In this document: piece after piece, positions 48,688 to 62,250 of the stretch | How the letters are laid out: each line of letters starts with the position of its first letter | How positions within the stretch are numbered: the stretch's first letter is position 1 | NCBI RefSeq assembly: GCF_004119455.1 | Contig: NZ_NRQT01000012.1 | Span: forward strand, 62,001 to 126,000 | Reading direction: 5' to 3' | Source: Chryseobacterium sp. CH25 | GTDB lineage: Bacteria > Bacteroidota > Bacteroidia > Flavobacteriales > Weeksellaceae | Length of the DNA: 64,000 nt | Translations under genes and position numbers: made by a program | Notes under the pieces: model-generated | What the model was told of the DNA's origin: nothing | Database searches by the model: none | What the model saw: the letters and a program-made list of their open reading frames with translations, nothing else

Positions 48688-48761
48688 GGTCCTATAGCTC
48701 AGTTGGTTAGAGCACCTGACTCATAATCAGGTGGTCCCTGGTTCGAGCCCAGGTGGGACCA
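48688..48761 (+). tRNA. tRNA-Ile2 (anticodon CAT, lysidine-type), element attachment site
   Basis: A 74-base cloverleaf: acceptor GGTCCTA / TGGGACC (one T-G pair), anticodon stem CCTGA / TCAGG with loop CTCATAA, anticodon CAT at 48722-48724. The 3' CCA is not encoded. C4-G69 and C5-G68 pairs match the TilS identity of the isoleucine tRNA rather than elongator tRNA-Met, but annotators may call it tRNA-Met. The integrase gene lies 187 bp downstream. Confidence 0.95.
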
Positions 48762-48766
48762 CTTTT

Positions 48767-48948: not shown

Positions 48949-50148
48949 ATGACAATTAAAATATTATTTGTATTAGATAAATCAAAATCTAATAGTAAAG
49001 GTCTAGCTCCCTTAAAATGTAGGATCACTTACATGGGAGAGAGAAAGCCTTTTGCTACGGGGATATTTATTAATCCTCAAAACTGGGATAATAAACAGCA
49101 GAAAGCCAAACCACCTAATTCTGAGAACGAAACTATCAATACACAATTGAGCCTGATTAAGAATAAGATTAATCAGGCTTTTTTGTTTTTACAAGTTAAT
49201 GAAGAAGATTTTGATGTGGAAGATGTTTTCTTACAGTATAAAGGAAATCCTCCTAAAAAGAATAAAACTATATTACAGCTCTTTCAAGAACATAATGATA
49301 GAATTGAAAAGCTGATAGGTAAGGAGTATTCTATAGCAACTTTATGGAAGTTTAAACAAGCAAAAGAACTGTTAAAGGGCTTTATTAAGTATTCTTTTCA
49401 TAAGGGAGACTATCATTTCAAAGATTTGGACTTAAAGTTTATTCAAGATTATGAATTCTTTCTGAAGGCAGAGAAATCTTTAGCTCTTGCAACTACTAAT
49501 AAGATGATACAAAGGTTCAGGAAGATAGTTAAGCTTGCTATATCCCAAGATATTATACAAAAAGAACCATTTACAAGCTACAAAGTAAAGCATATCAAAA
49601 AAGAAATTACTTATTTGACTAGGGAAGAGCTAGCTAAAATAGAAGAGTATCAATTTAAAGCAGAGAGATTACAAATAGTAGCAGATATGTTTATCTTTTG
49701 CTGTTATACAGGTTTAGCATATAATGAAATGGTAAACCTTGAGAAATCTCATATTATAATTGGCTTTGATGGTAATGAATGGATTAATATGATTAGAGGA
49801 AAGACTCAGCATTTATTGTCAGTACCACTACTTTCTAGAGGTAAGAAGATGATTGAAAAATATGATTATGTTGATGAAAAGAGAGTTTTACCTAAGTTTA
49901 GTAATCAAAAGTTTAATGCTTATTTAAAAGAAATAGCTGATATAGTTGGATTAGATAAAAGACTTACTCATCATCTAGCTAGAAGAACCTTTGCAACAAC
50001 TGTTTTACTTTATAATGATGTACCTATGGAGATTGTAAGTGAGCTTTTGGGACATTCTAAAATCACTATTACTCAAGAGCACTATGCTAAAGTTGTTAAG
50101 AGTAAGGTTGCTGAGCAGATGAATAAGCTAAATTCAAAATTGATGTAA
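48949..50148 (+). CDS. Tyrosine recombinase / integrase
   Basis: The 399-residue protein has an N-terminal arm-binding region (about 1-100, WDNKQQKAKPPN), a SAM-like core-binding domain (about 108-215) and a catalytic domain. Visible catalytic residues: K285 in RGKTQ, H342 and R345 in THHLARRTF, H369 in LLGHS, and Y379 in EHYAKV. The first catalytic arginine is replaced by Ala257 (TGLAYNE), as in related Bacteroidota integrases where a non-arginine residue is also found. It is placed next to the tRNA as expected for the element integrase. Confidence 0.95.
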   Translation: MTIKILFVLDKSKSNSKGLAPLKCRITYMGERKPFATGIFINPQNWDNKQQKAKPPNSENETINTQLSLIKNKINQAFLFLQVNEEDFDVEDVFLQYKGNPPKKNKTILQLFQEHNDRIEKLIGKEYSIATLWKFKQAKELLKGFIKYSFHKGDYHFKDLDLKFIQDYEFFLKAEKSLALATTNKMIQRFRKIVKLAISQDIIQKEPFTSYKVKHIKKEITYLTREELAKIEEYQFKAERLQIVADMFIFCCYTGLAYNEMVNLEKSHIIIGFDGNEWINMIRGKTQHLLSVPLLSRGKKMIEKYDYVDEKRVLPKFSNQKFNAYLKEIADIVGLDKRLTHHLARRTFATTVLLYNDVPMEIVSELLGHSKITITQEHYAKVVKSKVAEQMNKLNSKLM

Positions 50149-50162
50149 AATAAAAGAGGTGG

Positions 50163-51587
50163 TTATTCCCACCTCTCTATTTTTAAATTAGGTTTAACTC
50201 CAATATTCTCTTTCATTACTTGAACTAAGACATACTTTACATATTCAACATTTTCCTCTGTGGTAATTATAGAGTCATGTAATGTAAATAAAGGTATATC
50301 ATCTTTATCCGTATTAATTCTTTTACAAGCTTTTTGTAAAACTAAATCTGCTTCAAGACTCTGGAGTACAATAGCTAATGTATTGTGTTGTCCTTTTTTT
50401 ACATACTTAAGAACTTTATATACATTTGGAAAGATTCTTTTGAAAATCTTAATGTAGTTTGAATGACTAATAGCTCTATTGTTGCTGAATAAGGTACTGA
50501 AAGTTATATTCTTGACTTCTTTTCTTAAATTATCATCTGAAATATTTTCAAACTCTCCATTATTTTTTAAGATTTTTCCAAATTCTTCATAAAACTTTCC
50601 AGAAGAAACTATTTTTTTGAATAAAAGGACATCATCTTCTCTAGATATGCTATATATTAAAACTCCTAACATAATAGTATCAAACTTAACATTAACCTTT
50701 TCTAGTTTTATATTCATATTACATCTTTCATAAACTTCTTTATTAAGTAATGCTTGTAAGAGGTAAGGTTGTGAATTTGAAATATCTATACTACATAAAA
50801 CCTTGCCTTTCCATTTTAAAAACTTTCTTAATTCTGATTTAAGCTGAGTTATATAGGTATGTAGTCTTCCAGCAGTTGCATCCACGAAAAACAATTGATT
50901 TTCTTTTTTGCATAAGTGTTCTACAGGAAGCAACCTGCTATTATACTTTAGGATTGCAGTATCAGAGTTTTCAGTTTTATAATCTTCTCTCCATTGCCTT
51001 TTTAAATACTTTCTAGCAGCTTTAATATCTACATCAATATCTTTAAACCATTTTTTCAGAAAAATCAAATCATTAGTTAGTTCTGAGTTATAGTTCTTTC
51101 TGAGATAAACAATGTTTTTTATTAAAGTCCATGATGTAATCTCAGTAGGCTTTAAATGATGCCTATATTGATGTGTAAATCTCAAGCCACCACATTTTTT
51201 ATCAGGAATATAATTATCTTCCTCTACAATGCCTTGTTCTTTAAGGTAATTGATATGAACCCTGTAATCTTTAATGATACTACCAAGTATTGTTTTACTG
51301 ACAGGTGTAAAACCACTATAGTTCTCAATTGATTTCTTTTTCCTAGCAGGAAGAGCATATATAAGATTAAGAATATAAACAAATTTATCCCTATCATAAT
51401 TGAATTCAGGGGGATTTTTCTGTAAAACATTGTCTATGTCTAAGTTTTCAGGTAAATAGAAAGTAAGCTTGTCTATTACGGGATAGCCACCCTTTGTTTT
51501 TATCTCAAGTGTTGCCTTTTCACTTGGGCTATTATTCTGTTTAGAGTTGGTTGCTAAGGCAAAACCAACTTTTTGATTTTGTGCCAT
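50163..51587 (-). CDS. Divergent family-A (PolA-like) polymerase, TV-Pol type
   Basis: A 474-residue protein. The C-terminal half has the palm and finger motifs of family A polymerases: GRLHTYITQ (240-248) before motif A, SIDISNSQPYLL (D268 as the metal aspartate) as motif A, LRKEVKNITFSTLFS (R355, K359, F363, F367 spaced +4, +8, +12 as in PolA) as motif B, LQSLEADLVLQKA, and TLHDSI (H437, D438) as motif C. No 3'-5' exonuclease is seen; the N-terminal 230 residues are unassigned. It resembles the mobile-element TV-Pol family as I recall it. It is divergent from the RecA-like ATPase gene, suggesting element replication or repair. Confidence 0.75.
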   Translation of the reverse strand: MAQNQKVGFALATNSKQNNSPSEKATLEIKTKGGYPVIDKLTFYLPENLDIDNVLQKNPPEFNYDRDKFVYILNLIYALPARKKKSIENYSGFTPVSKTILGSIIKDYRVHINYLKEQGIVEEDNYIPDKKCGGLRFTHQYRHHLKPTEITSWTLIKNIVYLRKNYNSELTNDLIFLKKWFKDIDVDIKAARKYLKRQWREDYKTENSDTAILKYNSRLLPVEHLCKKENQLFFVDATAGRLHTYITQLKSELRKFLKWKGKVLCSIDISNSQPYLLQALLNKEVYERCNMNIKLEKVNVKFDTIMLGVLIYSISREDDVLLFKKIVSSGKFYEEFGKILKNNGEFENISDDNLRKEVKNITFSTLFSNNRAISHSNYIKIFKRIFPNVYKVLKYVKKGQHNTLAIVLQSLEADLVLQKACKRINTDKDDIPLFTLHDSIITTEENVEYVKYVLVQVMKENIGVKPNLKIERWE

Positions 51588-51782
51588 TACCCCCTCTCCT
51601 GAGGGAGCTGTGCCTTTGGAGTGTTAAATCCAAGAGGTGCTTAGCAGTAAAGCAAGTGGCTTACAATTATTTTACAAAATTACGAATTTAAAGCCATAAA
51701 TCATAATTTATTTCACTTCGTAATTAAAAATGTTTAACATTTACTTTTATATACGTTCATATTAATATTAAGGTTACAAATT
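51588..51782. promoter_or_regulatory. Divergent promoter region with structured leader and inverted repeat
   Basis: Between the divergent polymerase and ATPase genes. Near the polymerase start lies a GC-richer stretch with two small hairpins (CCCTC/GAGGG at 51592-51605; TTGGA/TCCAA at 51616-51633) that would be its mRNA leader. A 9-bp perfect inverted repeat AATTACGAA (51678-51686) / TTCGTAATT (51717-51725) sits in the middle and could be an operator or an origin-like site. Confidence 0.45.
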
Positions 51783-52781
51783 ATGCAATTAAAACAATCA
51801 CAAAGACAGCAAGTCAAGCTCAGATTAGGATTATCAGGAGCTTCTGGATTTGGAAAAACCAAATCAGCTTTATTATTAGCCTATGGAATGGCGCAGGACT
51901 GGAGTAAAATAGCTGTAATAGATACAGAGAATTCTTCAGCTTCCTTATATTCAGACTTAGGAAACTATAATGTACTTGATCTACAAGCTCCTTATAATCC
52001 TGAAAGATATATTCAGGCTATTGAACTCTGTGAGAATTCAGGAATTGAAGTTATCATTGTAGATTCAGCTAGTCATGAATGGAATGGTACAGGTGGATGT
52101 CTTGAAATTCATGAGAAGTTAGGTGGAAGATTCCAAGATTGGGCAAATGTAACTCCAAGACACCAGGCTTTTATTAATAAGATTCTGCAATCTAACTGCC
52201 ATATCATTACTACTACAAGAAGGAAAATAGATTACTCTCTTGATGTTGGAAGCAATGGTAGGACCCAAGTAGTAAAGCATGGAACTAAGGAAATTACAAG
52301 AGATGGCTTTGAATATGAGTTGACTATCAACTTCGAGCTTATTAATGAGAATCATCTTGCTAAGGCTTCAAAGGATAGAACAGGATTATTTATGAATAAA
52401 CCTGAATTTCTTATTAATTCTGATACAGGCAAGATGATATTAGAATGGTGTAATTCAGGTTTAAAAACTAATACTTCTCAAATCTCTACTACAAGCCCTA
52501 TAGGAAGAGACTCCATACCTAAAATAGATCCAAAAGATGCTTTTGAGGGTATTTCTCCTTATGAGAGTAACCCAAGTTTAGATCTTACCCATATAACGGA
52601 AAAGGAAGTATTTGAAGCTATTCAGAATTGTAAGTCAGTCACAGAACTTTTAGCTTTATACAGACAGTTTCCACAATTTCAGGAAAGTCTACAGCCTGAT
52701 TTTGAAGCTAAAAAATCTTTACTTATTAATTTAAATAACCCTAATAATTTTTGTAAAAATGGGCACACAAAGTTTCAATAA
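51783..52781 (+). CDS. RecA-like AAA ATPase of mobile elements
   Basis: The 332-residue protein has a Walker A at GASGFGKTK (19-27) and a Walker B-like VIIVDSASHEW (near 89-99), and a phage-type nucleotide-binding fold with IAVIDTENSSASL and HIITTTRRK. It looks like the P-loop ATPases of phage and integrative elements, some of which act in single-strand annealing recombination. The C-terminal 100 residues are less conserved. Its stop overlaps the start of the DUF3871 gene. Confidence 0.85.
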   Translation: MQLKQSQRQQVKLRLGLSGASGFGKTKSALLLAYGMAQDWSKIAVIDTENSSASLYSDLGNYNVLDLQAPYNPERYIQAIELCENSGIEVIIVDSASHEWNGTGGCLEIHEKLGGRFQDWANVTPRHQAFINKILQSNCHIITTTRRKIDYSLDVGSNGRTQVVKHGTKEITRDGFEYELTINFELINENHLAKASKDRTGLFMNKPEFLINSDTGKMILEWCNSGLKTNTSQISTTSPIGRDSIPKIDPKDAFEGISPYESNPSLDLTHITEKEVFEAIQNCKSVTELLALYRQFPQFQESLQPDFEAKKSLLINLNNPNNFCKNGHTKFQ

Positions 52782-54033
52782 AACTCCCAACATAATAGAA
52801 GTAAGTTTAAGATCAGAAGAGCCCCCTTTTAATCTGCAGCTGAAAAGTGTAAGTAATACTATTCTTGTAGAAAAGAAACCAATTAGAGATATTTTCCTAA
52901 ATGGTAATGAGAGCTTTAAAGATGCAGAAGTATTTTATTCAAGCAAGATGAATGATGTTGAAAAGAAAATTGACACTCCTGTACAAGCTGTAAGAGTTGA
53001 TGTTCCCAATAAAGAGCCTGAACATAAAGAAATGTTTCAGGTTTTTTTAATGCCCGTTTCTAAAGTTCAGAATATACCTGATACTCCAGTTGGGCTAGCT
53101 GAAAATGGAGGTAATCAATCTAGTCCTTTTATCATAGCTAATACATCAGAAGCAACATTACATCATCTACAGAATGATTGTATTATTCCTGTGTTCAGTA
53201 AAGATAATGAGAAAACTATTGCTCATCAGGAATTTATTGAAGTTGTTTTAAGTGCTGTTCAGAAAGTTTTTCCACATTACTGTATTACAGAACCTGAAAT
53301 TAGGGTTTCTCACCAAATTAAGGGTAGAACACCTTCAGCTATTCAAAAGCCTGTAAAAGAGCTTTTGGAACATGAAAAAACCATTTATTATGAAAGGATG
53401 GCATTCATTATAAAAGTTCCAACTATTACAGATATTGTGAATGGAGATGAGCTTTCTCTTACCATTGGAGGAGTACGAAGTTATAACTTGGAAAACCTTT
53501 ACAATAAAAAATCTCTTGAAAAGTTCAAGTTCTTTATAGGCTTCCAAAATCAGGTTTGTATGAATCTTTGTGTGAGTAGTGATGGCTTTGTAGAAGATAT
53601 GAAAGCTGGGAGTACAAATGAATTGTATTCAAAGACTTTAGAAACAATGCAAAATTATAATGCAGAGCTTCATCTTATGGAAATGAAAGAACTTTCACAG
53701 TATTTTCTTTCAGACCATCAGTTTGCTCAATTAATTGGAAGAAGTAGATTATATCAACATTTACCTAAGTCTGAGAAACAGAATATTCCTTTGTTAAACT
53801 TTAATGACAGCCATATTAACGCAATGGCTAAGGATTATTATGAAGACCAAAATTTCTGTAGAAATCAGGATGGAAATATTAATCTTTGGGATGTTTATAA
53901 TCTGTTTACACAAGCAAATAAAAGCAGTTACATAGATACTTTTCTTGATAGAAATTTGAATGCTTTTGAATTCTCAAAAGGTATTCAAAAAGTACTTAAT
54001 GGTAACTCTAATTATCATTGGTTTTTGAGTTGA
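52759..54033 (+). CDS. DUF3871 domain protein
   Basis: A 424-residue protein with the long conserved core of DUF3871 as I recall it: VGLAENGGNQSSPFIIANT (about 115-134), RVSHQIKGRTPSAI, ERMAFIIKVP, VGGVRSYNLENLY-like, HQFAQLIGRSRLYQHLP and NLWDVYNLFTQANKSSYIDTFLDRN near the end. DUF3871 is common in Bacteroidota mobile elements and has no known function. Its start overlaps the ATPase gene by 23 bases, so it is co-translated with it. Confidence 0.85.
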   Translation: MGTQSFNKTPNIIEVSLRSEEPPFNLQLKSVSNTILVEKKPIRDIFLNGNESFKDAEVFYSSKMNDVEKKIDTPVQAVRVDVPNKEPEHKEMFQVFLMPVSKVQNIPDTPVGLAENGGNQSSPFIIANTSEATLHHLQNDCIIPVFSKDNEKTIAHQEFIEVVLSAVQKVFPHYCITEPEIRVSHQIKGRTPSAIQKPVKELLEHEKTIYYERMAFIIKVPTITDIVNGDELSLTIGGVRSYNLENLYNKKSLEKFKFFIGFQNQVCMNLCVSSDGFVEDMKAGSTNELYSKTLETMQNYNAELHLMEMKELSQYFLSDHQFAQLIGRSRLYQHLPKSEKQNIPLLNFNDSHINAMAKDYYEDQNFCRNQDGNINLWDVYNLFTQANKSSYIDTFLDRNLNAFEFSKGIQKVLNGNSNYHWFLS

Positions 54034-54081: not shown

Positions 54082-55562
54082 ATGAAGCCATTTGTTACAC
54101 AAGAGTTTATTATTAAAAAAATTAAAAGTTACAATAGAGAACATTTACTCAATAATTTATTTTATACATTAAAACAGATTGACCTAAGGGAAGAGAATAA
54201 TCATCCTTATGGCATTACCTCTTATTAATAAAATGGACATTTTTGTATGGAAATAATGAAGGTAAAAAGACTTTTTCAAGAGAAAAATTCATAACACTTT
54301 TAAAATATGTTGAAAAATTTGAGAAAAAATCACTTGACCCCTATGTCAAAAAACATGAATGGGATAAATTTTTTCAAATCATAGGTTATCAGCAATTCTA
54401 TCTACAACAAGAAGTTCATTGGAGTGATTTCGCCAGACAATTAAAACTATTTGGTTCATCCTTGAGGAGTAAATATGATATAGAAAAATCTTTCAATGAA
54501 TTGTCTAAATTGAAGCTTTTTGATTTTATATTTTTCATGCACATTGTATGGATATTTACTTTAGCAAATAGGATGAATAAAGGGGTTATTTATACTGGAT
54601 ATATTGGAGAAGAAATCCATGAAATGATGAAAGATATTTTCAATTGTAAAAGTGAATTTGATAACTTTCTTATGTTATTAACTTTGAACAGTACAAATAT
54701 CAAGAAATCAATAACCCAATTTAAAACTGGAATAAAGCAACCTTATTTACAGGCATTCGAAATGTCATTTTTCACCCAACTTCCTTTTATATTAAATAAT
54801 GAAAATAAATACGAAATAGTGCACAGGAGTATCTTTAACTATTGTTGTAATTATTTTATTTATGATTATTTAAAAACTAATGATGAGAAATTTACGGAAG
54901 AATTTGGAAGAAGGTTTGAAAAATATGTTGAATTAGGCTTAAAGGAATGTGAAGTTCAATACAGTAGTGAAAAAGATTTGATTAAGGCTTATGGAAAAAA
55001 AGAAAAAATTGTTGATTATATAGTTGAAAATCAAATTTTAATTGAGTGTAAAGGAATTGAACCTAAAGCATTATCCTCAGTAGTTCCTGAAGATGAAATT
55101 GTATACAATGCTTTTAAAGATTCAATCTTCAAGGCATATCTAAAACAAATGCTAAATGTTATCAAGTTAAAAGAAGATTTACACACACCAATGTATGGTA
55201 TTGTAATTTGTTATAAAGATTTTTATGTATCTTCCTTAGATGATTTTTCTGAAATTTTAAATGAGGATATTAATTATATATGTATTCAAAATGGTTGGAA
55301 AGCTAATCCTTTACCTCTTGAAAATGTATTTGTAATTAGTATTGTTAATTGGGATATAATAGTTGAATATCTTAAAGAGAAGAGGTTTACATTATCTAAA
55401 TTACTTGAAGAGCTTGTTTCCAAAAACAAGCAAGAAAAGCATAAGTGGTTTTTAGGTTTGCTAAAAAAATATGGAAATGCAAAAGGAAATCTTTCTTATC
55501 TTGATGAGGAAAACCAAAAACTAACAGATGCAGTTGGTGCTCCATCTAAAAAAATAGTTTAA
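54082..55562 (+). CDS. PD-(D/E)XK-like nuclease protein, split by a one-base loss
   Basis: An ATG at 54082 opens MKPFVTQEFIIKKIKSYNREHLL... but runs into a stop after NNHPYGITSY. A second frame (from about 54207) carries on LWHYLLLIKWTFLYGNNEGKK... to 55562. One extra base near 54200-54210 gives a continuous 493-residue protein. The core KIVDYIVENQILIECKG holds a D-x(n)-ExK motif of a PD-(D/E)XK nuclease fold, with a preceding EFGRRFEKYVELGL helix. A TTG at 54243 could be a restart. It is probably a defence- or restriction-type nuclease; substrate unknown. Confidence 0.6.
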
Positions 55563-56364: not shown

Positions 56365-58425
56365 TTAATCCTCCTCTTCATCATCATAAAACAAATCTAT
56401 ATCAATTTCATCATCAATACCCATGAATAAATTTCCAATTTGTGCTTCTGTTTGAAACACATCATTAATAAAGCCAATTTCACTATCAATAGCATTTGTA
56501 TTATCAGTAAAATGTTTTCGTACATATGGCTTTAATTCTTCACTGATTGATTCTGGAATGTCATTATCAACAACTATTAGTTGAAAGCTATTTGATGATT
56601 TATTTAGTGATAACAAATACTTATAAATATTTTCATATTTTTTCGAATCACTCATTCCTTCTTCTTGATCAGCTTTTAAATCTGTTTCTAGAAGGTCTTT
56701 TTCTTTAGTAGTAGTTTTACCAATATATTTTGCAATGGTATCAATCATTAGAAATGATGGATAGTTAACACTATTTTCAGAGGCATATATCATTAGGCTT
56801 AAGAAATATCCTACAGAACTTAAAGTTCTTACTCCTCCAGAAGTAAGATTTTCATAATCTCTATTTCTAATAATTGGTAAATTTGTTTTTGATGAAATAC
56901 TGACATCACTGACATTTTTAACACCTATAAAATTCAAAAATTCTTTTACTTTTCTTCCTAAATCTTTCAAAATATTATCCAGATTTGGAGCATTTTCTTG
57001 TAACTCCTTTAGGGTTGCATTAAGTTCGATTATATTGGTGGCTAAATTTTCAATCTCATCTTGATTTTGGGATTGTTGCATCCTTATTTTATAGAAATGT
57101 TTTAAATTTTTTCTTTCACTTTCCAAGCTACCTGCTTTGCGAGATAATACATCTCTTTTAGTAATAAATGGAGAAACAACATCAATAGATTGCTTATCTA
57201 ACATGTATCTAAGTTCTTCTAATTCAGTTGTTTTTTCTTTTATCAATTTTTCTTTTTGTTCAATAGATTCTCTAAGAAAGTCATATATTTTTTCAATTTC
57301 TTTTTTTCTTCTTCGTAAGCCATTTAATTCACCTTTAATATTTTCAGAATTGGAATTTGTAAAATGTTCTTTTAATTTACTAATCTGCATTGATTGATCA
57401 CAAACAGGACATGCAGTATTCTTATCTTCAATATGAGGAAACTTTTCTATAACTTCTATTGTTGAATTTATTTTTCTGATATCATTACTATATTCATTTC
57501 TTAATGCGATATTTTGCTTTATCTCCTGATCATTTACATGTAAATCTTGTTGTAATGCTAAAATCTCTTTTTCTTTTTCTTGTATATCTCTTCGTAAATA
57601 ATTTAAGTGTTCACTGTCTTTTATGATTTCTTTATCAATATTTTTTAAGTCTTCCTGAATTGAAAGATAATCATTATCAATATTTTCAAGTTGTTCAGAT
57701 AAAACAGTTAAAGACTCTACTTCTGTCTCTTTAAGAAAAGAAGATATTGAAGCATTCCTCTTTTCTAATTCATTTTTTAAAGTGTTGTTTTCAGATATAA
57801 CTTCTTGTAATTCTAATATTTGGCTATCTAAAGCATTAAACATTAGCTTAAATGTTTCTTTTAATTTTACTAATACAGAATAGTTATCTCCAAACAACTT
57901 TTTACTTCCTATTTTATCCTGGTCTAAGAAATTGTATTTAAAAATGTCTCTGAAACTTAAGCGAGTCATTTTTGAAATATCTTTAGTTGGAGATTGTTTT
58001 AATCTAATGACAGGAATATTCATGGCAGATAAAAGAAAATCAGAAAAATATCCATCCTCACTAAGTTGACTGTAGTTAGGTGAATAGTATTTAGGAAAAT
58101 GATCTTCAATTTTATTATGTGAACATTTATAAACTTCTATTTCATTTTTTGGTTTAAAAATATTTCTCTTTACAGTAAAAGTTTCTCCACGTAGTTCAAT
58201 TTCCAATAAACAGTAATTACCAGTAATTTCTATTTCATCATAGAGATCAACTGAACTAGAACCTAAACAATAATTAATTAAGTTTAATATACTTGATTTA
58301 CCTGTATCAGAGTCACCATAAATAATATTTAATCCCTTTTTAAAATTTACTTCATAGTTTTTTCTATTTCCAACCAGAATTAGATGATTAACTATCAATT
58401 TTGGAGTTACAAGATTCATTGCCAT
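56365..58425 (-). CDS. SMC-like ABC ATPase of an ABC-3C defence system (DUF3732-type)
   Basis: The 686-residue protein has a Walker A at GDSDTGKSS (37-45), a long coiled-coil insert with a CPVC-type hook near 337-340, an ABC signature-like LTSGGVRTLSS near 528, and a Walker B-like FLMIDTIAKY near 557 where the usual acidic residue after Asp is Thr. It has the overall layout of the DUF3732/ABC-3C ATPase as I recall it. Its start overlaps the end of the middle-component gene, so the three genes form one operon. Confidence 0.8.
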   Translation of the reverse strand: MAMNLVTPKLIVNHLILVGNRKNYEVNFKKGLNIIYGDSDTGKSSILNLINYCLGSSSVDLYDEIEITGNYCLLEIELRGETFTVKRNIFKPKNEIEVYKCSHNKIEDHFPKYYSPNYSQLSEDGYFSDFLLSAMNIPVIRLKQSPTKDISKMTRLSFRDIFKYNFLDQDKIGSKKLFGDNYSVLVKLKETFKLMFNALDSQILELQEVISENNTLKNELEKRNASISSFLKETEVESLTVLSEQLENIDNDYLSIQEDLKNIDKEIIKDSEHLNYLRRDIQEKEKEILALQQDLHVNDQEIKQNIALRNEYSNDIRKINSTIEVIEKFPHIEDKNTACPVCDQSMQISKLKEHFTNSNSENIKGELNGLRRRKKEIEKIYDFLRESIEQKEKLIKEKTTELEELRYMLDKQSIDVVSPFITKRDVLSRKAGSLESERKNLKHFYKIRMQQSQNQDEIENLATNIIELNATLKELQENAPNLDNILKDLGRKVKEFLNFIGVKNVSDVSISSKTNLPIIRNRDYENLTSGGVRTLSSVGYFLSLMIYASENSVNYPSFLMIDTIAKYIGKTTTKEKDLLETDLKADQEEGMSDSKKYENIYKYLLSLNKSSNSFQLIVVDNDIPESISEELKPYVRKHFTDNTNAIDSEIGFINDVFQTEAQIGNLFMGIDDEIDIDLFYDDEEED

Positions 58426-58922
58426 TATAAGTAATTTTGTATAATTGAATTTATTTTAGAATGAGACATATTCAATATAGGTTTCATCTGTATCAATACT
58501 TTTTCTAATCTTTGAAAATATGCTGTTTCAAGCTTGTCAGCCATATTCTTTCCATCTTCATTAATTATATAAAGAATTTGGAAGTCTTCACTTGTTTTAA
58601 TGTCAATGAATCCAAATGATAGTAAAATATTTAGTAATAATTTTATTCGAGTGAAATCAAATAATTGCCCTCTATTGGGAAATATAGCTTCAATTGAATA
58701 TTTTTCTGCATTTGTAAGTGTTAAAAAATTTTTGTCCTTATTATCCAATAACCTGTTAAGTAGAATAGGATGTTTAGAAATAAACTCGAATTGAGCAATT
58801 CTATCTAATGTAAATATACCTTCTTTTTTTGTGCTTTTTGAAAGGATTAGTAATAAGAACAATAGTTTGCCAACTCCAAAATTTACTTCATGATCAGGAA
58901 TATAAATAGGTATCTTTTTCAT
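58425..58922 (-). CDS. ABC-3C middle component
   Basis: A 165-residue helical cytoplasmic protein (VGKLLFLLLILSKSTKKEG, ILLSFGFIDIKTSEDFQILYI) of the small winged-helix-like type found between effector and ATPase in ABC-3C operons. It overlaps the ATPase gene by one base and follows the hydrolase gene by 4 bp. The call depends mostly on operon position and size. Confidence 0.65.
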   Translation of the reverse strand: MKKIPIYIPDHEVNFGVGKLLFLLLILSKSTKKEGIFTLDRIAQFEFISKHPILLNRLLDNKDKNFLTLTNAEKYSIEAIFPNRGQLFDFTRIKLLLNILLSFGFIDIKTSEDFQILYIINEDGKNMADKLETAYFQRLEKVLIQMKPILNMSHSKINSIIQNYL

Positions 58923-58926
58923 ATTG

Positions 58927-60141
58927 TTACTTTCCTAAACTTTTTTTGAAGACTTCAAAATCATTTTTAGTGTGGTCTTTATCCCACCATATACTATCAT
59001 CAATTCCTGCAAGCTGATGTAACATCCCAAACTTTTGTAAACTTTGTAATGGTTCATATAAAGAAAGTAGATGTTTTTTATCTTCTGCAACTATTCTTTC
59101 GTGTACAGCTGTGAAAAAATCATTGGGATTATTGTGTGTTCCTTTTATGAATTTACCAAATTCAATATAATAAAGCTCTTGTATTTTAGTATATAACGGC
59201 TCTAAAGTTTTTAAATCTACTCCAAGTGAGGCTAATTTCCTTAAAGTGAATTCAGCATTATAAAAGGCTAATTTGCCACTCTTTAATAACGAAGCATGGA
59301 TGTGTGCCATCATTAATTTTAATACAAATATTTCTTCATCATATTGCCCGTCATCACTGAATTTAGCTTGATTTTCAATAGTTTGTATTTCTTTTTCTTT
59401 CAAAAATTTTTTTAATTCAGTTATTAAGGCATCAACTAATACATTTTTATTCTCTGGTAAAATAATACTAAAATGGTCATCATCACAGTATATCACATTT
59501 TGACTATCAGCATCAAGAGCTATGGAACTTTCGGGACTTACAATGGTATCATATAAGCCTTGCGCATAGAATCTTTTAGGCAAGTTTTTGTTTTGTACCC
59601 ACTCATTATTCATTTCAGTTATACTTGTACTTAATGCTGCTAAATCTGTAATTTGGACATTAGTAATCAAATTTGTCCCATAATTTGCTATTATAGAACC
59701 TAAATGAGGAGTTGCTAGTGATATGTATAATTTAGTTCTGGAGTCAGTATTCTTTTTTAAATCATCTAAAACAAACCTTTTTGCAATAAGCCCTCCCATA
59801 CTATGACCTATTAAGATAATATTGTCAAATTCTGCGCATGAGTATTGAATTTTAGACTCTAATAATTTTGTTATTTGATTTATGGCAAGATTTTTTGCAT
59901 CTTTTTTCTTACGCGCAAAATTCAAAAAAGTTCTTGTTTTTGGAAAAAAATTAGTTAACTCAGTATAATATTCAAATAAAGCTATATTAAAATTATTCTT
60001 TATTTCTAAGTCATCCAGTAGATAACTAATTAGTGGCATTTTACCATCTTTCTTGACCCATGTTTCTTCACTACCAATAAATCCATGTATAAATATTATG
60101 AGATTCTTTTTCTCTGGTATTTCATGAACAAATTTTATCAT
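58927..60141 (-). CDS. Alpha/beta hydrolase effector with ABC-3C C-terminal domain
   Basis: Residues 1-240 form a lipase-type alpha/beta hydrolase: IIFIHGFIGSE, LIGHSMGGL (Ser114), a possible acid in GLYDTIVSPESS (Asp198), and a His in DDDHFSI (His223). Residues about 260-404 (LMMAHIHASLLKSGKLAFYNAEF..., SIWWDKDHT) are the helical C-terminal domain shared by ABC-3C effectors as I recall it. When triggered by the ATPase it would hydrolyse a lipid or ester in the infected cell. This is an inference from family and operon. Confidence 0.75.
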   Translation of the reverse strand: MIKFVHEIPEKKNLIIFIHGFIGSEETWVKKDGKMPLISYLLDDLEIKNNFNIALFEYYTELTNFFPKTRTFLNFARKKKDAKNLAINQITKLLESKIQYSCAEFDNIILIGHSMGGLIAKRFVLDDLKKNTDSRTKLYISLATPHLGSIIANYGTNLITNVQITDLAALSTSITEMNNEWVQNKNLPKRFYAQGLYDTIVSPESSIALDADSQNVIYCDDDHFSIILPENKNVLVDALITELKKFLKEKEIQTIENQAKFSDDGQYDEEIFVLKLMMAHIHASLLKSGKLAFYNAEFTLRKLASLGVDLKTLEPLYTKIQELYYIEFGKFIKGTHNNPNDFFTAVHERIVAEDKKHLLSLYEPLQSLQKFGMLHQLAGIDDSIWWDKDHTKNDFEVFKKSLGK

Positions 60142-60735: not shown

Positions 60736-61086
60736 ATGGTACGAATTGTAAACTACAAAACAAGACAGAAAGAAGATGGAACAAACTTTTATCTTCTAGA
60801 GGTACAAGGTGGAATTGAAATGGTATTAAGCAAAACAACTGGTCAATATTATGCTACAGCCAAGAAAGCTACTGTATCAACTACATTCGATGAAGAAACC
60901 TGTAAAGGCTTAATAGGCTCTGATATGTCTGGTAAAGTTGCAAAGATTACTACAGAGCCTTATCAGTACACTATCAAAGAATCTGGAGAGGAAGTCACTC
61001 TCAATCACAAATACATCTATCTTCCAGAAGGTGTAGAAAGTTCTGAGGAGAAACTAGCAAAACAACTTGAAGAAGCCTTTGCCTAG
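60736..61086 (+). CDS. Conserved hypothetical protein of mobile elements
   Basis: A 116-residue cytoplasmic protein with a strand-rich N-terminal half (RIVNYKTRQKEDGTNFYLLEVQGG), a middle KATVSTTFDEETCKGLIGSD and a charged helical tail (ESSEEKLAKQLEEAFA). I do not recognise a family. The compact beta-rich pattern might be an OB-like fold, but this is weak. It is preceded by about 590 bp of non-coding AT-rich sequence. Confidence 0.6.
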   Translation: MVRIVNYKTRQKEDGTNFYLLEVQGGIEMVLSKTTGQYYATAKKATVSTTFDEETCKGLIGSDMSGKVAKITTEPYQYTIKESGEEVTLNHKYIYLPEGVESSEEKLAKQLEEAFA

Positions 61087-61108: not shown

Positions 61109-61167
61109 AATACATCCATTTTTCCTGAATCCATATATAGGGTTTAAGAATTTTGGATGTATTTTTT
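61109..61167 (+). terminator. Possible terminator with a long loop
   Basis: AATACATCCA / TGGATGTATT (10 bp) with a 35-base loop and a T tail, after the 60736-61086 gene. Confidence 0.4.
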
Positions 61168-61276
61168 CTTTTCTATAATAAAAATGTCCATATCGTGTGG
61201 TAATACTATATACTTCTACACAGAATGGACATTTCAATTCTCATCCCATTTACTAACTAACAACCTTAATCCTTAC

Positions 61277-61726
61277 ATGAAAACAAATGTAAAAGTTACA
61301 GAATTACTTGTTTCTTATTCTAACAATAATATAAATCCAGAACAAAAAATAAGCAACAGTGATGACAGTTATGATATTGCTATGAATCTATGGAACCTTA
61401 ATACTATTCAAATACAGGAAGAAGTGAAAGTAATATTTCTCAATGATGCCCTTATGGTACTAGGCTGTTATTCTTTATCTAAAGGTGGTATTTCATCTAG
61501 CATAGTTGATATTAGATTAATACTATCAGTAGCTTTAAAAGCTATAGCAACAGGTATTATCTTAGTTCACAATCATCCTACAGGAAATCTTAAACCCAGT
61601 AAAGCAGATTTAGATATTACAAAGAAATTAAAGTCAGCCTGTGATGTTATGGGAATAAACCTTTTAGACCATCTAATTATCTCAAAGGAAAGCTATTTTA
61701 GTTTTTCTGATGAGGGGTTATTGTAG
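61277..61726 (+). CDS. RadC-like JAB-domain protein
   Basis: The ATG at 61277 is used because an upstream ATG at 61157 adds a non-conserved extension. The 149-residue protein has the JAB/MPN metal motif LVHNHPTGNLKPSKADLD (HxHPxG...SxxD). It is the RadC-type domain common in mobile and anti-restriction gene sets of Bacteroidota; the enzymatic role is unproven. Confidence 0.85.
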   Translation: MKTNVKVTELLVSYSNNNINPEQKISNSDDSYDIAMNLWNLNTIQIQEEVKVIFLNDALMVLGCYSLSKGGISSSIVDIRLILSVALKAIATGIILVHNHPTGNLKPSKADLDITKKLKSACDVMGINLLDHLIISKESYFSFSDEGLL

Positions 61727-62013: not shown

Positions 62014-62250
62014 TTAGTTTTCAGAAGCTTCAATATTTAATAGATCAATAAGCTTAATTTCTAAAGCTTCTGCTATTCTGTATAAAGTAATTACTGTAGG
62101 ATTAGTCCTACCTGCTTCAATTCTTGATATATTGGTAGGATCAATATTACCTTCCATTCTGCCCACTAAATCTGCTTGAGAAATACCTTTTTGAATTCTC
62201 AATTCTTTAATCCTTTTACCAATTAATTTTAATATTTCTGATTTTTCCAA
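62014..62250 (-). CDS. XRE-family transcriptional regulator
   Basis: The 78-residue protein is a single helix-turn-helix (IGKRIKELRIQKGISQADLVGRM, NISRIEAGRTNPTVITLYRIAEAL). The start is a TTG at 62250; no in-frame ATG lies nearby. The start overlaps a 20-bp near-palindrome, so it is likely autoregulated. It probably controls element genes. Confidence 0.85.
   Translation of the reverse strand: MEKSEILKLIGKRIKELRIQKGISQADLVGRMEGNIDPTNISRIEAGRTNPTVITLYRIAEALEIKLIDLLNIEASEN

Follow-up and report, generated by a model that had tools for sequence, protein, structure and literature searches.

The window analysed here is a stretch of 64,000 nucleotides from Chryseobacterium sp. CH25. Its right-hand part carries an integrated element that starts at the end of a tRNA gene and runs just past the edge of the window. 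The features of the element, in order, are the following.

48688..48762, forward strand: tRNA-Met gene, the integration site (ARAGORN)
48739-48762: attL, the last 24 bp of tRNA-Met (exact repeat)
48949..50148, forward strand: tyrosine recombinase, the integrase (Arm-DNA-bind_5, Phage_int_SAM_5, Phage_integrase, phrog_1)
50163-51587, reverse strand: polymerase ORF, 474 aa, ATG start
51585..51665, reverse strand: polymerase leader with three hairpins (covariation, covariance model)
51783..52781, forward strand: AAA_24 ATPase, Sak4-type and RecA-like (PF13479, E 2.4e-13; phrog_1366, E 4.8e-76)
52759..54033, forward strand: DUF3871 protein (PF12987, E 1.2e-144)
54243..55562, forward strand: GapS1-like putative antiphage cargo, TTG start (NF047931, E 3.6e-61, below the model cut-off)
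56365..58425, reverse strand: Lamassu LmuB-like SMC-type ATPase, cargo (PADLOC, E 2.5e-201)
58425..58922, reverse strand: Lamassu LmuC / ABC-3C MC4, cargo
58927..60141, reverse strand: Lamassu LmuA-like protein, alpha/beta hydrolase with ABC-3C CTD8, cargo
60736..61086, forward strand: 116-aa protein, conserved in these elements
61157..61726, forward strand: RadC-like JAB-domain protein (PF04002, E 3.7e-37)
62014..62250, reverse strand: Cro/C1-type (XRE) regulator (HTH_3, E 8.3e-13)
64791-64814 in extended coordinates (contig 126791-126814), just beyond the window: attR (exact repeat)

The element spans 16,052 bp between the two 24-bp repeats of the tRNA-Met 3′-end, and its GC content (0.289) is below that of its flanks (0.361 and 0.363). 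Searching 59 congeners revealed the empty site: both flanks are contiguous in G002, G006, G010, G044 and G056, and in G007 they lie a few bases apart. The start of the right flank is found elsewhere in six congeners (G016, G023, G026, G032, G052, and G054) and has no match in 47 of the 59. An earlier sequence-only reading had placed the polymerase gene on a mobile element, and the repeats together with the empty sites bear this out. The tRNA-Met 3′-end is also repeated, over 46–65 bp, on the same contig in congeners G003, G004, G005, G009, G032, and G042, suggesting that tRNA-Met is a hotspot taking different insertions at one site.

The integrase and polymerase genes are convergent, with their stop codons 14 bp apart, and the AAA_24 gene, the RecA-like ATPase that the sequence-only reading had placed beside the polymerase, is divergent from the polymerase gene. 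AAA_24 corresponds to Sak4, a group of single-strand annealing proteins that in phages are often encoded upstream of SSB genes (PMC8093625). No SSB was recognized beside the polymerase gene. Helicase, relaxase, and conjugation genes were likewise not found among the element ORFs scanned with Pfam, a scan that covered ORFs of about 60 aa and more, save L134:1459-1641. The 116-aa protein has no credible Pfam or PDB match and no support as an OB-fold SSB. It recurs in 13 of the 84 loci compared here, within the stretches covered; the 84 are the window plus 83 fetched loci, where L021 and L088 are one plasmid (only L088 is in the set) and L024 and L089 are alike and thus a possible duplicate. Between the polymerase and ATPase genes, inverted repeats that could mark an origin showed no common arm when sought by eye. 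A Lamassu-type defense set (LmuA/B/C, ABC-3C) occupies 56365-60141 as cargo, and the GapS1-like protein has no match in PADLOC.

The polymerase can be divided, from its predicted model and the family alignment, as follows.

Residues 1-28: low-confidence segment (predicted model)
Residues ~36-150: N-terminal domain (predicted model)
Residues 188-227: thumb helices (model and alignment)
R241: arginine hairpin (model and alignment)
D268: motif A
R355/K359: fingers helix
H437-D438-S439: motif C

The motifs named in the sequence-only reading are all present: motif A (SIDISNSQPYLL) is centered on D268, motif B consists of R355, K359, F363, and F367 at a spacing of +4, +8, and +12, and motif C (TLHDS) includes D438. 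The claim that a Ser replaces the Glu of motif C was also correct, the resulting HDS being the same as in T7 RNA polymerase. So was the lack of an exonuclease, inasmuch as Pfam and NCBIfam show no nuclease domain in the window polymerase. (One of the 79 aligned members matches NUMOD4/HNH endonuclease models, perhaps because of an inserted homing element.) Database searches gave no significant match to Pfam, PHROGs, or NCBIfam (the best Pfam hit, at E 0.011, is below the cut-off) and nothing credible in sequence profile searches of the PDB. Twenty-four of the 79 family members match phrog_4756, whose function is unknown, with a best E of 2.7e-11. The host PolA is encoded by a separate gene.

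The 79-row alignment (A3), which omits five of the 83 fetched ORFs, each shorter than 380 aa, has R241, D268, Q273, Y333, K359, K397, Q409, E412, T435, H437, and D438 invariant. Position 355 is R in 69 rows and K in 10, and Phe occupies position 363 in 60 and position 367 in 70 of the 79. Some of the relatives were retrieved by patterns built on motif A or C, so that invariance at these motifs is partly circular. The invariance of R241, Y333, K359, K397, Q409, and E412 is free of this circularity, and R241, D268, K359, H437, and D438 are also kept in 17 relatives retrieved without patterns. Compared with its 88%-identical relative in Chryseobacterium endalhagicum, the gene has a dN of 0.061 and a dS of 0.276; the ratio of 0.22 means that it is maintained by purifying selection.

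AlphaFold, when given the 79-sequence alignment, yields a polymerase model of pLDDT 90.9 and pTM 0.87 (from the single sequence, pLDDT is only 34.5). The best Foldseek match of the model in the PDB is a family A DNA polymerase (E 1.9e-6). The 50 VIA-align matches listed are all family A DNA polymerases (Z 14.2–16.1), with 252–267 residues aligned, mostly model residues 166-474, at an identity of 11–17%. The model was also compared with viral structure models. There, one of the top two matches, both covering nearly the whole length, is a putative DNA polymerase I from an uncultured marine phage, and the other is an entry without a name; the replication protein of Zamilon virus ranks 47th.

A palm, fingers, and thumb arrangement, which had been proposed as the structural check of the sequence-only reading, is thus found in the predicted model over residues ~166-474, and the motifs fall at catalytic positions on its hairpin, palm strands, and fingers helix. 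Thumb helices 188-205 and 208-227 precede the hairpin 233-244, in which R241 is located; D268 closes strand 262-269, R355 and K359 sit in helix 351-367, and D438 lies between strands 434-436 and 439-443. The order of the parts is that of PolA: the R241 hairpin TAGRLHT, corresponding to TGRLSS, is followed by motif A with D268, the fingers helix R355-K359-F363-F367, the LQ..E helix, and motif C with HD438. A chance match of the motifs was considered and rejected, as the fold, the conservation, and the dN/dS speak against it.

The N-terminal domain reads, in our view of the model, as helix-helix-helix-wing, an arrangement resembling HTH or winged-helix domains, and could bind an origin. Searches of this domain against the PDB and Pfam gave nothing credible, and the winged-helix reading is unconfirmed by sequence comparison. 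The same secondary structure would suit a catalytically dead regulator that binds DNA and merely retains the polymerase fold. This we regard as extremely improbable: none of the 79 members has lost either metal-binding Asp, Arg241, or Lys359, and such constancy would hardly be expected if catalysis had been given up.

Judged by its residues, the active site appears to be mixed, combining an HDS and an Asp-x3-Ser like those of T7 RNA polymerase with a PolA-like motif B and no Glu sugar gate. The database record of T7 RNA polymerase has D537-GSCS, R627-K631-M635-Y639, and H811-D812-S813. Where that enzyme has M635 and Y639, the Chryseobacterium polymerase has F363 and F367; Phe363 is as in PolA and Phe367 replaces the Tyr of both host PolA and T7 RNA polymerase. 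The Y639F mutant of T7 RNA polymerase is a precedent for loose sugar choice. The sugar-gate Glu of PolA has no counterpart in the Chryseobacterium enzyme, its place being taken by the invariant Gln273 at Asp+5 or, if two inserted residues are allowed for and the register shifts accordingly, by Tyr275 of the window protein. In E. coli PolA, this Glu (E710) excludes ribonucleotides (PMC7581432). By analogy with Y639F, the polymerase might select sugars loosely. Such a mixture of DNA and RNA polymerase features also bears on the common ancestor proposed for PolA and T7-like RNA polymerases.

Could the protein then be a single-subunit RNA polymerase that transcribes the element? Motif C and the spacing of motif A are those of the T7 enzyme, and three of the 79 aligned proteins hit phrog_2051, 'RNA polymerase', weakly (E 0.016 at best). 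However, the 50 VIA-align matches listed are DNA polymerases without exception, motif B has Phe and not Met/Tyr, and no promoter-recognition domain was recognized. We therefore consider transcription of the element a very doubtful function.

Relatives of the polymerase are present in 22 of 99 related genomes, the window's own counted. Across the phylum they turned up in 17 of 395 genomes, a lower bound, since no more than four candidates per genome were scored. In the species-genome collection, the best 80 of 90 matches gave 79 loci, and the relatives there belong, going by their titles, to Bacteroidota except for Candidatus Laterigemmans (L091) and one member of Chlorobiota (L103). Relatives are also found on four viral contigs and a Hymenobacter plasmid, and in six uncultured phage records of 595–735 kb; the six are out of 23 records, the remaining 17 being near E 1 or outside the matches listed. 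In the two huge-phage polymerases inspected, of the six, the hairpin Arg and motif A are preserved, as are the RxxxK helix and HDS. When viral contigs were first scanned with a single polymerase protein, none of five candidates proved to be a relative. The Hymenobacter plasmid also bears an annotated replication initiation protein, and the idea that the polymerase is the sole replication gene of that plasmid was accordingly dropped.

The most frequent partner of the polymerase gene is an integrase of the same family as that of the window, found nearby in 65 of the 84 loci at a median distance of 450 bp. In 19 of the 79 full-length loci, some on short contigs, there is no integrase within 6 kb. 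A tRNA gene on the same strand ends within 700 bp ahead of the integrase in 42 of 65 cases but ahead of only 3 of 672 other ORFs. The distance in the 42 loci is 71–321 bp, mostly 165–255, and at least nine kinds of tRNA are involved. DUF3871 is near the polymerase in 28 and AAA_24 in 25 of the 84 loci. An 87-aa HTH_17 protein is encoded directly upstream of the polymerase, at a median of 3 bp, in 17 of the 84 (L050, L054-L056, L058-L061, L067-L070, L072, L094, L099, L101, and L102). These integrase, HTH_17, polymerase loci are mostly at tRNA-Ser and are possibly very small elements. The gene layouts follow the polymerase tree, with 13 changes vs. a mean of 43.5 and a minimum of 36 upon shuffling, and none of the layouts is monophyletic. 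Over 61 loci, distances between the polymerases are correlated with those between the integrases (r 0.76, a value that none of 2000 permutations reached, and 0.42 when distant pairs are taken by themselves), to which shared host ancestry may contribute.

This gene context bears on two further explanations. The polymerase may serve repair or gap filling, completing ends or recombination intermediates left by the Sak4-type ATPase or the integrase, and not be a replicase. The recurrence of AAA_24/Sak4 and DUF3871 is consistent with such a role, as is the annealing activity of Sak4 proteins and the position of their genes, often ahead of phage SSB genes (PMC8093625). But the commonest partner is the integrase and not the ATPase, and the 17 loci with the integrase, HTH_17, polymerase layout have no ATPase within 6 kb, which makes a repair role unlikely. 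Alternatively, the enzyme could be part of the defense cargo, synthesizing nucleic acid upon phage infection, since Lamassu and a GapS1-like gene are on the same element. That is quite improbable given the integrase near the polymerase in most loci, the absence of Lamassu and GapS1 genes from the 40 neighbor clusters listed, the members in huge phages, and the lack of any PADLOC match for the polymerase.

Ahead of the polymerase gene lies a conserved RNA of three hairpins, the third of which stops one base short of the start codon. In an alignment of five sequences, 94.8% of the cells pair, a value as high in 3 of 500 shuffles, and controls slid along the sequence pair at 59% or less. Five of the 23 pairs are changed on both sides (as many in 22/500 shuffles) and the covariation score is reached in 1/500, whereas the number of pair types is ordinary (247/500). 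With eight sequences fitted to the covariance model, which biases their alignment toward the structure, 13 of the 23 pairs are changed on both sides (0/500). Judged by folding energy alone, the leader of the window is only mildly stable (z -1.5) and that of L031 not stable (-0.4), while three further leaders have z values between -2.4 and -3.6. The covariance model matches 8 of the 84 loci, all ending at the polymerase start codon, the start of L032 having been taken as GTG in this comparison. A second, refined model recovers the same eight plus one match at chance level. Across 59 genomes there are three matches above 22 bits, all of them polymerase leaders, and the region has no Rfam match at E≤1.

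Over the 40 nt ahead of the start, the mean folding energy of 25 polymerase genes linked to AAA_24 is -7.9 kcal/mol. The groups compared with them fold less strongly: AAA_24 genes (-0.95), DUF3871 genes (-0.7), integrases (-2.3), other ORFs (-2.9), and 60 other polymerase genes (-2.5); the sequences are not independent and the starts follow a first-ATG rule, by which some are wrong. A strong stem abutting the start is found in 6 of the 25, compared to 0/26 AAA_24 genes, 0/28 DUF3871 genes, 2/70 integrases, 3/791 other ORFs, and 0/60 other polymerase genes. The leader is thus confined to one branch of the family. What looks by eye like a second leader type lies in the 100 bases ahead of the polymerase start in L033, L044, and L045: a stem closing a conserved AGGTCTGTTTGTTGTGATTCTACCT, followed by two further hairpins, the final one near the start codon.

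The gp43 DNA polymerase of phage T4 belongs to family B. It holds down its own translation by means of a hairpin in the mRNA leader (PMC3014915). The likeness is that of a replicative polymerase mRNA with a hairpin close to the initiation site; going by the available part of that paper, the two systems differ in polymerase family and in the position and sequence of the hairpin. The leader suggests translational control of the polymerase, and by analogy with T4 we propose that such control is autogenous. It suggests a control circuit that is undescribed in the accessible portions of the papers cited here.

In our judgment, the 474-aa protein is probably a stand-alone, TV-Pol-type polymerase of family A that has no exonuclease domain and replicates the tRNA-targeting integrative element on which it is encoded. 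The integrase would excise the element from its tRNA site, and the polymerase would prime and/or extend DNA synthesis on the resulting circle. The adjacent Sak4-type ATPase would support it by strand annealing or ssDNA handling, and the leader RNA would keep its dose low. A bolder version can be put forward, although taken as a whole we think it rather unlikely: the family would be an element-borne branch of primase-polymerases that, lacking the Glu sugar gate, start chains, use both ribo- and deoxynucleotides, and replicate small tRNA-integrated elements of Bacteroidota without a dedicated helicase or a separate primase, and that in the AAA_24-linked branch bind a new conserved leader RNA at the start codon and thereby restrain their own production.

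The kind of enzyme is already known, but the branch, the element anatomy, the mixed active site, and the leader RNA appear to be new within the literature searched. Going by titles and the openings of abstracts, no description of this element was found. As of 2020, the CcPol authors were aware of no other TV-Pol member that had been characterized biochemically (PMC7581432). What is offered here is a well-bounded element outside staphylococci for which the polymerase model is of high confidence, the catalytic residues are clear, empty sites are at hand, and relatives occur in flavobacterial strains that have names. This makes the question of priming and replication by TV-Pol directly testable.

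The comparison with TV-Pol is the closest. The 2008 paper of Iyer, Abhiman, and Aravind predicts priming plus polymerization for this group, includes Bacteroidetes in its species list, and links a subset to lambda-type integrases (PMC2579912). Shared features are a short, nuclease-free polymerase of family A type and residence on mobile elements with lambda-type integrases (PMC2579912), as well as the hairpin Arg, the two metal-binding Asp, RxxxK, an additional N-terminal domain, and a thumb of two helices ahead of the hairpin, antiparallel in TV-Pol and predicted here as helices 188-205 and 208-227. Other features set them apart. The 2008 text gives TV-Pol a conserved fingers Asp, whereas in A3 the stretch from motif A to RxxxK holds no Asp that is invariant or 90% conserved, and the invariant Tyr333 follows Gly330. 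D5 helicases go with many TV-Pols and none was recognized among the scanned ORFs of the Chryseobacterium element. The N-terminal domain, all-helical in the integrase-linked TV-Pol subset, falls clearly on neither side: here, the model has helices plus strands, and the N-terminal profile comparison with a TV-Pol-type set is matched by 2 of 60 shuffles. Leader RNA and the AAA_24 and DUF3871 partners are unmentioned in the TV-Pol text (PMC2579912).

Phage Ma-LMM01 is a named TV-Pol carrier (PMC2579912), and its 506-aa ORF beside a transposase is likely the TV-Pol; plasmid relatives were found in Calothrix and Polaromonas. The core profile of our family scores 31.8 against a four-protein set, which counts as TV-Pol by inference from the naming of Ma-LMM01 in 2008, and none of 60 column shuffles reaches this score (best 19.6). 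Against Bacteroidota PolA, the score is a weak 24.1 (1/60 shuffles as high), and over the whole length motif C alone is aligned with the PolA profile; the four-protein set itself matches PolA at E 1.8e-4 (no shuffle control). HMMER alone fails to connect the Ma-LMM01 protein with the Chryseobacterium family: hmmsearch of 50 of the 162 kb of Ma-LMM01 with the Bacteroidota polymerase profile ranked the likely TV-Pol third, at E 0.61. In the phylum of L091, neither the Ma-LMM01 protein nor the Polaromonas protein had a match in any of 246 genomes, which is uninformative for want of a positive control, and the Polaromonas protein found nothing in the viral contigs. By these comparisons, TV-Pol appears to be the nearest named group. 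That part of the original TV-Pol-like designation stands; as the conserved fingers Asp is missing, we keep 'TV-Pol-like' and claim no full membership.

Priming of DNA synthesis has a precedent in CcPol-MP, a TV-Pol-related enzyme of SCCmec (PMC7581432, PMC10061031). It is similar in having an A-family polymerase domain on an integrating element, in the absence of a full exonuclease, and in its association with priming. CcPol retains the E710 and F762 of PolA (its E174 and F225), of which the Chryseobacterium polymerase does not have the Glu. It also pairs with a helicase and an OB-fold protein encoded next to it, neither an SSB nor a helicase being recognized beside the Chryseobacterium gene. 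With PolA, T7 DNA polymerase, and Pol theta, the likeness is the palm, fingers, and thumb; the differences are the exonuclease domain, HDS in place of HDE, and the N-terminal domain. The Polaromonas plasmid protein, with the motifs SGRLYAHNVNLQN, DIENCH, LLQGVES, and QHDG, appears from these to be intermediate between PolA and our family. On its 7.2-kb plasmid, pW9NP1 (L198), the TV-Pol-type gene is 10 bp upstream of repA, and pW9NP1 is a convenient test system for the replication role of TV-Pol-type enzymes.
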